In this document: positions 4,114 to 16,486 of the stretch, piece after piece | How the letters are laid out: each line of letters begins with the position of its first letter | Numbering within the stretch: position 1 is the first letter of the stretch | NCBI GenBank assembly: GCA_002415085.1 | Contig: DIBV01000006.1 | Span: 1 to 64,000, forward strand | From: Arsukibacterium sp. UBA5043 | GTDB taxonomy: Bacteria; Pseudomonadota; Gammaproteobacteria; Enterobacterales; Alteromonadaceae | Direction of reading: 5' to 3' | DNA: 64,000 bases | Notes under the pieces: model-generated | What the model was told of the DNA's origin: nothing | Seen by the model: only the letters and a program-made list of their open reading frames with translations | Databases searched by the model: none | Position numbers and translations under genes: made by a program

Positions 4114-4764
4114 ATGAAGCAGTTTCAACGTGATTTTATTGAATTTGCCCTGAACCGTCAGGTATTAAAGTTTGGCCAGTTTACGCTGAAATCGGGCCGC
4201 ACCAGCCCGTATTTCTTTAATGCCGGTTTGTTTAATACCGGCAGCGATCTGGCCAAACTGGGCCGGTTTTATGCCGCAGCGTTGCAGGATGCGGCAATTG
4301 AATTTGATGTGCTGTTTGGTCCGGCTTATAAAGGTATACCAATAGCCACTACCACAGCAGTAGCCCTGGCGGATCATCACAACCGGGATGTGCCGTATTG
4401 CTTTAATCGCAAAGAGGCGAAGACCCATGGTGAGGGCGGTAATTTAGTCGGCGCACCGCTTAAGGGCCGGATTATGCTGGTGGATGATGTGATTACCGCC
4501 GGTACCGCCATTCGTGAGTCGATGCAGCTTATTCAGGCGCAGGGCGCTGAGCTGAGTGGCGTGCTGGTGGCGCTGGACCGGCAGGAACGCGGTCAGGGTG
4601 AGCTGTCGGCCATTCAGGAAGTGGAGCGCGATTTTAACACTAAGGTTGTGGCTATTATCAGCCTGCCGGATCTCATCAGCTATTTAGCCGATAAGCCAGA
4701 AATGGCAGAGCATTTGGAGGCGGTAAAAGCTTACCGGGCGCAGTATGGGGTTAAGATAGCTTAA
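4114..4764 (+). CDS. pyrE: Orotate phosphoribosyltransferase
   Basis: PyrE joins orotate to PRPP, forming OMP in pyrimidine synthesis. The 216-aa protein is of normal length. It has the [14 protein letters not shown] substrate segment near the N-terminus, the mobile loop with [13 protein letters not shown] (about residues 98-110), and the PRPP-binding motif [12 protein letters not shown] (about 123-134). It follows rph after 18 bp. In enterobacteria pyrE is controlled by an attenuator at the rph end. No hairpin with a U tract is visible in this short spacer, so that control is not evident here. Short AGCTTAAC repeats overlap and follow the stop codon. Confidence 0.97.
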
Positions 4765-4837
4765 CAGCTTAACAGCTTAGTTAGCGACAGAGCGCAGAGT
4801 CAGGAAATGCTTTCGACGGCTCACCGTAACGCAAGGT

Positions 4838-4935
4838 ATCAGGTAATGCTTACGGAACAGCGGCATGGATGCCGCGCAGGCTGAAGGGGCACAGGGATGT
4901 GATCCTTGAAGCCGGTGCAGTAAGTGTTACCTGAT
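4838..4935 (+). repeat. Structured three-stem repeat element, copy 1
   Basis: The element is closed by a 16-bp outer stem (4838-4853 with 4920-4935) whose only two non-Watson-Crick positions become G-U pairs when read as plus-strand RNA. Inside are the hairpin GCGGCATGGATGCCGC (4860-4875) and a longer hairpin at 4879-4913 capped by a GGGA (GNRA-type) loop flanked by CACA and TGTG. The junction GGAACA (4854-4859) is identical in copy 2. It lies between the convergent genes pyrE and slmA. Short open frames across it on the minus strand are spurious. It could be a structured RNA or a small non-autonomous mobile hairpin element. Confidence 0.8.
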
Positions 4936-4995
4936 GCGTTGCAGAGTCTGCTGCCGTTTTGAAAGTACCCTTGCCCCTGCGCTTCCTTTAAGTTC

Positions 4996-5586
4996 TCAGT
5001 TAAATAAAGCCTGCTGCAGTAGCGCCCACTGGTTTTGCCAGGCGTTGGTTGGCAGGCGTTTAAAGCCTGAACGAACAAATTGGCTTATTTTACCCTCTAC
5101 CAAGGCCAGTAGTAAGTTTGCCAGCTCGCCTTCGTCAATGCTGAAACCTTTACCTTCGCGCAATTTGCGCTCGCGCAGGGTTTGTTTAAATTGCGTTTCC
5201 AGTTTTTCAAACAGCGCAGCAACCCGCTCCAGCAAACGCTCCTGCTCACCTTGTAAGGCATCGCCGGTAAGGATGCGGCAAAAGCCCGGGTTACGCTCGG
5301 CAAATACCAGAATAAGCTGCAGCATGAGTTCAATGCGGCTTTGGGTGTCTTTGTGTTCATCTGAAATGCTGTTTATTCTGGATAACAGGGTGTCTTCAAT
5401 AAATTCAATTAAGCCCTCAAACATTCGGGCTTTGCTGGGAAAATGCCGATACAACGCCGCCTCGGATACGCCAACCTTTTCGGCTAAAGCAGCCGTAGTA
5501 ATGCGCTGGCCGTTGTTGCTTTGCAACATGGCGGCTAACGCCTGCAAAATATCTTCTTTTCTGTTGCCGCGACGCGGTGTTGACAT
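4996..5586 (-). CDS. slmA: Nucleoid occlusion factor SlmA (TetR family)
   Basis: SlmA binds specific chromosomal sites and blocks FtsZ ring assembly over unsegregated DNA. The 196-aa protein has the N-terminal TetR helix-turn-helix (about residues 28-52, including [21 protein letters not shown]) and the helical C-terminal domain. The start [14 protein letters not shown] agrees with the family. It lies in its usual neighbourhood between pyrE and dut-coaBC. Unusually, it is flanked on both sides by copies of the same structured repeat. Confidence 0.94.
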
Positions 5587-5631
5587 AGTTGTTCCTGAAA
5601 ATAAAAACCAATATATTATCTACTGCTTGTT

Positions 5632-5677
5632 CAGCCAGTATGTAGGGTGTTGGTGCAAGGCTCGTCCAGCCAGTATG
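5632..5677. repeat. Short direct repeat upstream of slmA
   Basis: The 11-mer CAGCCAGTATG occurs at 5632-5642 and 5667-5677. It lies in the slmA 5' region, so it could be a pair of binding sites, but chance or local duplication is equally possible. Confidence 0.3.
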
Positions 5678-5728
5678 CGCCTTTCGCCGCCTTTAAGGAC
5701 GACTAACCCAAACTTTAAAAAACCGTAA

Positions 5729-5821
5729 GGCAACATACTTGTGGAACAGCGGCATGGATGCCGCGGAGCCTGAAAGGGCACAGGGATGTGATCCTTTAAG
5801 GCGGTGAACAAGTGTGTTGCC
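5729..5821 (+). repeat. Structured three-stem repeat element, copy 2
   Basis: It is the second copy of the element at 4838-4935, in the same orientation. Outer arms at 5729-5742 and 5808-5821 pair over 14 bp with one G-U. The inner hairpin GCGGCATGGATGCCGC (5749-5764) is identical to copy 1. The second hairpin spans 5768-5802 and has the same CACA-GGGA-TGTG tip. The arm sequences differ from copy 1, yet pairing is kept by compensatory changes. It lies between the slmA start and the dut stop, on the strand opposite to both genes. Confidence 0.8.
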
Positions 5822-16324: not shown

Positions 16325-16335
16325 TGTCCCGCAAC

Positions 16336-16428
16336 CAAGGGGTGCAACTGCGCAATAGCGCAAATGCTGAGATGCTTTCGGGCAAACCCTTAGAACCTGA
16401 TCCGGATTATGCCGGCGGAGGGATGGTG
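16336..16428 (+). ncRNA. TPP riboswitch (THI element)
   Basis: The conserved thi-box signals are present in order: AAGGGGTGC (from about 16338), CTGAGA (16367-16372), ACCCT (16386-16390), GAACCTGATC and the closing GCCGGCGGAGGGA (to 16423). This RNA binds thiamine pyrophosphate and lowers expression of the downstream operon. It precedes a TonB receptor, a thiamine-binding protein, PnuT and a kinase, which fits thiamine control. No strong terminator follows. The CTCC at about 16434-16437 could mask the GGAG at 16471-16474, so control of translation is likely. Confidence 0.96.
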
Positions 16429-16486
16429 CTAACTCCTCAAGCTGGTGTGATCTCTGTTTTTCTGATAAATGGAGCGTCATACGATA

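Follow-up and report, generated by a model that had tools for sequence, protein, structure and literature searches.

Two copies of a structured element flank slmA

The window analysed in this study is the whole stretch of 64,000 nucleotides from contig DIBV01000006.1 of Arsukibacterium sp. UBA5043, and all coordinates refer to it. The slmA gene lies there between two copies of a structured element, which are described below together with their parts. Bit scores marked R1 are those of a covariance model of the element (80 nt, built from 39 copies of what we call the long type, to which both copies belong).

4788..4814, strand not assigned: putative arm left over from an older element around copy 1, seen by eye, resembling L043, with a partner at about 4948-4986
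4831..4942, + strand: element copy 1 (fold; R1 match 4847-4926, 102 bits; sub-threshold RF01731 match, 27.6 bits, E 0.085), in the convergent gap between pyrE (+ strand, ending at 4764) and the slmA 3′ end
4831..4853, + strand: 5′ arm of the basal stem of copy 1, partner 4920-4942 (inverted-repeat search, fold)
4860..4875, + strand: hairpin 1 of copy 1, GCGGCATGGATGCCGC, hexaloop AUGGAU with GGA at 4867-4869 (fold, loop tally)
4879..4913, + strand: stem 2 of copy 1, GA at 4883-4884 facing GA at 4908-4909 as tandem G.A (sequence, alignment, fold)
4890-4901, + strand: tip of stem 2 of copy 1, CACAGGGATGTG, hexaloop AGGGAU with GGA at 4895-4897
4920..4942, + strand: 3′ arm of the basal stem of copy 1 (inverted-repeat search, fold)
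4999..5586, − strand: slmA, nucleoid occlusion factor, between copies 1 and 2 (NCBIfam NF007015, 286 bits)
5659..5699, − strand: possible element remnant (3′ half) beside copy 2, seen by eye, like L063:4061-4140, overlapped by a direct repeat
5729..5821, + strand: element copy 2 (fold; R1 match 5736-5814, 93.8 bits; sub-threshold RF01731 match, 33 bits, E 0.0051), in the gap between the slmA start and the dut 3′ end, antisense to both genes
5749..5764, + strand: hairpin 1 of copy 2, hexaloop AUGGAU with GGA at 5756-5758 (sequence, fold)
5768..5802, + strand: stem 2 of copy 2, hexaloop AGGGAU with GGA at 5784-5786 (sequence, alignment)

In the RNA fold of each copy, a basal stem encloses the hairpin GCGGCAUGGAUGCCGC, of six pairs, and a second, longer stem with CACAGGGAUGUG at its tip; the two copies are 89% identical over the shared 72 nt. 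Both copies were indeed found where the initial annotation had placed them, the paired stem of copy 1 being longer than noted there (4831-4942, with one mismatch). Its count of eight arm pairs with both partners changed was reproduced exactly, counted from the inner end over 14 bp, and so was the flip in the second stem, where G-C at 4880/4912 of copy 1 corresponds to C-G at 5769/5801 of copy 2. In stem 2 of copy 2 the tandem G.A is incomplete, because T at 5797 replaces one of its G residues. The + strand RNA was predicted to fold at −63.6 kcal/mol for copy 1 (z −8.15) and at −54.8 kcal/mol for copy 2 (z −6.80), and for each copy 0 of 200 dinucleotide shuffles was as stable. The − strand folds of copy 1 (−46.5 kcal/mol, z −6.26) and copy 2 (−46.1 kcal/mol, z −7.42) are weaker by about 9 to 17 kcal/mol, but are also good in relative terms, as palindromic arms would lead one to expect. 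The sequence 3′ of either copy carries no T-run. R1 matched copies 1 and 2 only within the window; the two putative remnants, which were seen by eye and are unscored, gave no R1 match.

At the curated Rfam thresholds, the sole match in the window was a TPP riboswitch (RF00059) at 16328-16440 on the + strand (68.9 bits, above the cut-off). An integrase-like frame lies near rph-pyrE at 873-2090 on the − strand (NCBIfam PRK09692, 79.9 bits, far under the cut-off of 434).

Loop sequences and the CsrA signature

Loop conservation was tallied by column for the 83 unique 80-nt cores that align without gaps (30 of 113 unique cores, carrying indels, were excluded), under a model whose seed had been chosen by a regular expression requiring GG in the first loop and GGA in the second and leaving N free. 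Loop 1 starts with A in 83 cores, followed by N (T48 G25 A9 C1), the GGA bases (81, 83 and 82 cores) and T (81); loop 2 likewise starts with A in 83, followed by N (G68 A8 T7), GGA (82, 83 and 83) and a last base that is T71 C9 G2 A1. Both hairpin loops are of the form A-N-GGA-X on a stem with N free, and the fold program additionally draws an A-U closing pair in each hexaloop. The tip of the second stem had been taken for a GNRA-type loop, an assignment now withdrawn: the first base of such a tetraloop is free across the 83 unique cores, while the A preceding it is kept in 83/83 and each GGA base in at least 81/83.

The high-affinity site for CsrA/RsmE is an ANGGAX hexaloop placed directly on a stem, with variation at N tolerated in the published structures (PMC4005645), and both loops of the element take this form in the folds and in the tally. 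The two GGA motifs are 25 nt apart in the window sequence, within the 10-63 nt (best >18) over which one CsrA dimer is described to bridge two sites (PMC7652899). The CsrA SELEX consensus is RUACARGGAUGU (PMC7652899); the tip CACAGGGATGTG includes its ACARGGAUGU part, and the tip ACAGGGAUGU is a match to the consensus. CsrA is encoded in all five of the genomes checked.

Relation to known RNA families

A permissive Rfam search placed RF01731 (TwoAYGGAY) over both copies, on the same strand and along the full length of the model (1-168). Among the 31 genomes of the genus, 21 match RF01731 at E<=0.01 (not each confirmed to be this element), with 37.7 bits as the best score; none of the 31 passes the gathering cut-off of 43 bits, and 14 control genomes gave no match. 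The element is likely a divergent relative of TwoAYGGAY that falls below curated membership. The earlier view that it belongs to no named family thus holds at the curated level, where apart from the TPP riboswitch no Rfam 15 family passes its cut-off in the window, and has to be modified for the sub-threshold match to RF01731 in the same strand and layout.

The likeness comprises the strand, the basal stem and the order of the two hairpins within it (cmscan alignment, folds), ANGGAY loops, the 3′ junction GG and the tandem G.A in stem 2 (columns 37-38 and 62-63 being G 79, A 83, G 83 and A 81 of 83 cores); a tandem G.A in a stem has been reported for TwoAYGGAY (PMC4333381). The window-type element differs in being shorter and multi-copy, in its site-specific palindromic arms, and in having mostly AGGGAU as loop 2, so that in the window only loop 1 (AUGGAU) reads AYGGAY. 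TwoAYGGAY, listed in 2010 without function, was classed there as a probable RNA that is probably not cis-regulatory and was recorded in human gut, gammaproteobacteria and Clostridiales (PMC2864571); two covarying pairs were added to it in Rfam 15 (PMC11701678). Its binding to CsrA was proposed in 2014 as a hypothesis to validate (PMC4333381), and the accessible parts of the literature on TwoAYGGAY yielded no test of this proposal. In the accessible literature, titles and abstract openings yielded no account of the present element, and no paper on repeats of Rheinheimera or Alishewanella was found.

The CsrA-sequestering sRNAs of the CsrB/RsmZ type (RF00018 and relatives) resemble the element in their ANGGA-capped hairpins able to take CsrA dimers; they carry many such sites whereas the element carries two, copies of the element lie in both orientations relative to genes, and no promoter or terminator belonging to the element was noticed. 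RF00018 gave no match in the window at its cut-off, and at E<=1 matched the same genome at another place only. This CsrB-like candidate (G000:C4:300829-301201, L098) scores 32.6 bits (cut-off 71; E 4e-7) in a search that, at E<=1, was also positive in 5 of 14 control genomes, and it carries 21 GGA on its strand.

Distribution among relatives and a short type

The exact two-loop pattern was matched by 85 of 197 relatives, and among the matches listed for them none was to the reversed pattern. Besides the long type seen in the window, the pattern also catches a second, shorter kind of element. With R1 at E<=0.01, 62 of 197 relatives were matched in a genome-wide search with stricter filters, under which weak matches are lost. 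All 31 genomes of the genus were positive, with 1-14 copies each (nine in the genome of the window), and outside the genus comparably strong matches were obtained from G071 and G109 only. A pattern scan of named genomes gave 55 stretches in Rheinheimera, Arsukibacterium, Alishewanella, Alkalimonas and other gammaproteobacterial assemblies. The reading of the initial annotation as a conserved structured element is thus supported: the element is widespread in Rheinheimera, Arsukibacterium and Alishewanella, with covariation well beyond the two copies. No match to the element was found in plasmid and phage collections (blastn, E<=0.01) or, for the exact pattern, in IMG/VR viral contigs. One arm group, of 25 same-armed copies in three genomes, shows dispersal with tandem arrays. 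The spacing in tandem arrays of the long element is 321 bp (L036), 352-406 bp (L145) or 121 bp (L153, L139). Just outside the 3′ arm, 25 of 86 representatives carry a trailing T(G/A/T)CAC(C/A), as against 3 on the 5′ side, which suggests that the repeating unit extends beyond the arm (e.g., L060, L178 and L137).

The short type (CATGGATG..GAGCC..CAGGGATG) has two ANGGAX hairpins inside long palindromic arms, and differs from the long type in its stems and junction and in the distance from the first to the last base of the loop pattern (31-35 nt versus 36). Some members are matched weakly by R1, at 23-27 bits (L036, L071, L072, L144, L145). The stem of the second loop varies (CCC/GGG, TAC/GTA, TAT/ATA), and ANGGAX is present in 38 of 39 unique hits, which were anchored outside the second loop at loci of which many had originally been picked by the loop pattern. 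RF01731 gave no match to the short type at E<=0.5 in the 18 loci scanned. Short-type members occur in L007-L035 and L069-L075 and have very long arms (L009, −106.5 kcal/mol over 166 nt), and the regions of L009, L012, L019 and L069 weakly resemble the Yersinia sRNA Ysr224 (RF02770; 27.7-29.4 bits versus 70).

Covariation and strand dependence of pairing

Across 36 distinct cores, 98.3% of the cells are paired as compared with 92.1% in shuffles, 10 pairs are doubly changed, and none of 500 shuffles reaches any of five measures of covariation. Sliding the partner column by 1-3 positions lowers the pairing to 34-48%. In the inner-arm helix double changes were found in 7 of 7 pairs. The initial annotation had regarded the compensatory arm changes as direct evidence that the fold is kept, but on their own they do not prove selection on it, because template switching between inverted-repeat arms makes matched changes too (PMC8794818, PMC8604942). 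Moreover, the distal arms vary by site, so that double changes seen between copies from different sites do not alone establish stepwise compensation.

The wobble pairs are more informative. The inner arms contain 45 G-U and 1 A-C (shuffle means 76.7 and 36.1; 0/500 reach the observed ratio), though a slight leaning to good pairs is inherent in copies retrieved with a covariance model; the figures are 16 and 0 among the 30 cores below 93% identity, and were 17 and 0 in an earlier count on fewer copies. Since a strand-blind process on DNA would give equal numbers, this asymmetry favours selection on one strand, although RNA and single-stranded DNA of that strand are not distinguished by it. The contrast is smaller in hairpin 1 (G-U 7, A-C 3; shuffles 25.6 and 21.0) and in stem 2 (G-U 130, A-C 10; shuffles 136.9 and 16.9), with 0/500 reaching the ratio in either. 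The outer arms were discarded as evidence: they give G-U 250 and A-C 22, but swapped-arm controls are also in excess (1009 to 186), and a first count of G-U 66 and A-C 24 has the same weakness.

Placement, conservation and orientation of the core

For analysis of placement we used 150 copies, after 8 of 158 model matches had been dropped (wrong length, short type, or L144:3809), from loci fetched around the matches listed, which leave out some contig-edge matches and all matches past the listing, 3 of the 9 own-genome copies among them. By gene calls that are crude (copy 1 was misassigned, with a spurious long frame) and with related copies counted separately, 51 are co-directional sense, 46 co-directional antisense, 47 convergent and 3 divergent, and 3 lie at locus edges. 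By the same crude calls, the core is within 100 bp of a gene 3′ end in 104 of the 147 copies with genes called on both sides. The neighbours identified by profile include ilvD-ilvA, queA-tgt, yidC-mnmE, pirin-DoxX, diacylglycerol kinase, and APS kinase with an inositol-phosphatase family gene. In many relatives (L038, L046, L050 and others) the pyrE-slmA gap holds a small gene, absent from this gap in the window, often with the element on one or both sides; in L046, the one locus tested, this gene is a diacylglycerol kinase (PF01219).

In seven hand-picked sets of copies from the same site, core identity was 0.88-0.97 and identity over the 90 nt beyond the arms 0.66-0.83, with random pairs at 0.59. 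The core and loops are kept as well in the antisense sets as in the sense sets, and core conservation is therefore independent of sense read-through; the cores might also be held alike by copying from one element to another.

Grouping by both flanks gave 28 site groups, 14 of them with at least 2 copies, and 9 of these 14 hold the core in both directions (the largest group mixes adjacent positions, yet the pyrE-dgkA position alone still shows both directions). At pyrE-slmA the opposite copies are close in flanks and arms (window, L063 and L057 versus L042, L068 and L059). A flip of the core alone between fixed outer arms is one possible reading, but where arms differ at this site (L057 versus L042 and L059) they look as if they had moved together with the core, and window versus L042 is ambiguous; in the pyrE-dgkA gap the arms of opposite cores differ at a single position. 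At queA-tgt, cysQ-cysC and other sites, cores of opposite direction lie in a common gap without clearly shared arms or flanks, and independent insertion is possible there. Template switching between inverted repeats is described to homogenise the arms and invert the spacer (PMC8604942, PMC8794818), and is a plausible mechanism of flipping here, with independent insertion as a possible alternative. In L059 one element is interrupted by another and there are arm remnants, both seen by eye, which indicates turnover.

Origin by insertion into a local terminator loop was considered for the position downstream of a gene that we take to be PutA-like, and was not supported. Several element-free loci (L212-L214, L217 and L218; 330 nt inspected by eye) carry ordinary hairpin-and-T terminators at this position, but the arms of the elements found there are not derived from these terminators with the orientations agreeing, and arms resembling them are present at other sites too.

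Discussion

The structure and the loop signature of the element are secure. The mechanism that we favour, tentatively and with somewhat less than even confidence, is docking of CsrA by a + strand transcript. In such a transcript a long basal stem would lead to a three-way junction with two hairpins, each capped by A-N-GGA-X. One CsrA dimer would take both loops, and the element might thereby turn the 3′ UTRs and spacers that bear it into local docking sites or small CsrA decoys. The palindromic arms probably also change by templated copying, leaving the core either way at one site. Transcription of the + strand, binding of CsrA and any effect on neighbouring genes are what we infer. In support of CsrA docking, the loops fit ANGGAX and vary where the published CsrA structures tolerate it (PMC4005645); the SELEX match, the 25-nt gap, the loops of the short type and the presence of CsrA in 5/5 genomes count in the same direction, as do the inner-arm wobble bias and the core identity of 88-97% against 66-83% in the flanks of the seven site sets. 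On the other side stand the lack of strand bias relative to genes and the equal conservation of antisense copies, for which read-through from neighbours fails as an explanation; the 46 antisense copies among 150 argue against a simple supply of CsrA-sequestering RNA by read-through. The CsrB-like candidate of the same genome (L098, 21 GGA, below cut-off) and the weak wobble bias of hairpin 1 also count against CsrA docking.

A mobile REP-like repeat, of which the + strand fold, as single-stranded DNA or RNA, would be recognised by an enzyme supplied elsewhere with the GGA loops as contacts, is the closest alternative and only somewhat less likely. REP/BIME repeats accompany or flank RAYT (Y1) transposase genes, and resemble the element as short extragenic palindromic repeats present several times per genome and in tandem clusters; the element differs by its two direct-order hairpins in a three-way junction and by its conserved GGA loops. 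Mobility agrees with the dispersed same-armed copies (25 in one group), the tandem arrays with periods of 121 and 321 bp, the core lying either way at shared sites and the interrupted element of L059. The proximity to genes would then reflect only avoidance of promoters and coding sequences, in agreement with the absence of a sense bias and with 3/150 copies being divergent, and recognition at the DNA level would explain why antisense copies are conserved too. R1 at E<=0.1 found no copy, however, in the 24 loci with a Y1 transposase that were scanned to some 1.5 kb on either side, and a scan for the loop pattern in 22 of these loci gave three hits (L082, L086, L087), none with a long-type core. 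Moreover, 4 of the 31 genus genomes have no Y1 transposase match and yet 3-10 copies, the plasmid, phage and viral collections have none, and the free N between a fixed A and GGA, which is what CsrA needs, is left unexplained by mobility.

It is unlikely that the element acts as an orientation-indifferent structure at 3′ ends, a REP-like barrier against exonuclease or read-through in which the loops only stabilise the hairpins. The 104/147 cores close to gene 3′ ends, in convergent gaps or in co-directional pairs such as ilvD-ilvA and queA-tgt, speak for this proposal, but stability leaves unexplained the near-invariant GGA, the free first loop base, the conserved junction bases and the one-strand wobble bias of the inner arms, and neither copy in the window is followed by a T-run.

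CsrA docking could also be combined with inversion, in that the arms would allow in-place flipping of the core, through template switching or recombination, gene ends would over evolution gain or lose CsrA binding on their own transcripts, and selection would keep two perfect loops on the exposed strand. We consider this combined form quite improbable; if true, it would make the element well suited to following how template switching writes covariation into RNA. Very improbable is a purely mutational origin of the arm changes, with template switching homogenising the arms and flipping the centre (both described for this process: PMC8604942, PMC8794818) and no selection on the basal stem, for although 9/14 shared sites hold both core directions and flanks and arms are similar at pyrE-slmA, strand-blind templating predicts equal G-U and A-C where the inner arms give 45 to 1 (the outer arms, 250 to 22 versus 1009 to 186 in swapped-arm controls, being uninformative), and the core itself is strongly constrained.

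The element combines palindromic arms with cores lying in two directions at shared sites, and so provides a clean case for telling apart the covariation that selection on RNA produces and that which template switching in DNA produces. As a genus-wide relative of TwoAYGGAY, present in 1-14 copies per genome and varying exactly at the base that CsrA ignores, it would make the proposal that TwoAYGGAY binds CsrA easy to test in culturable species.
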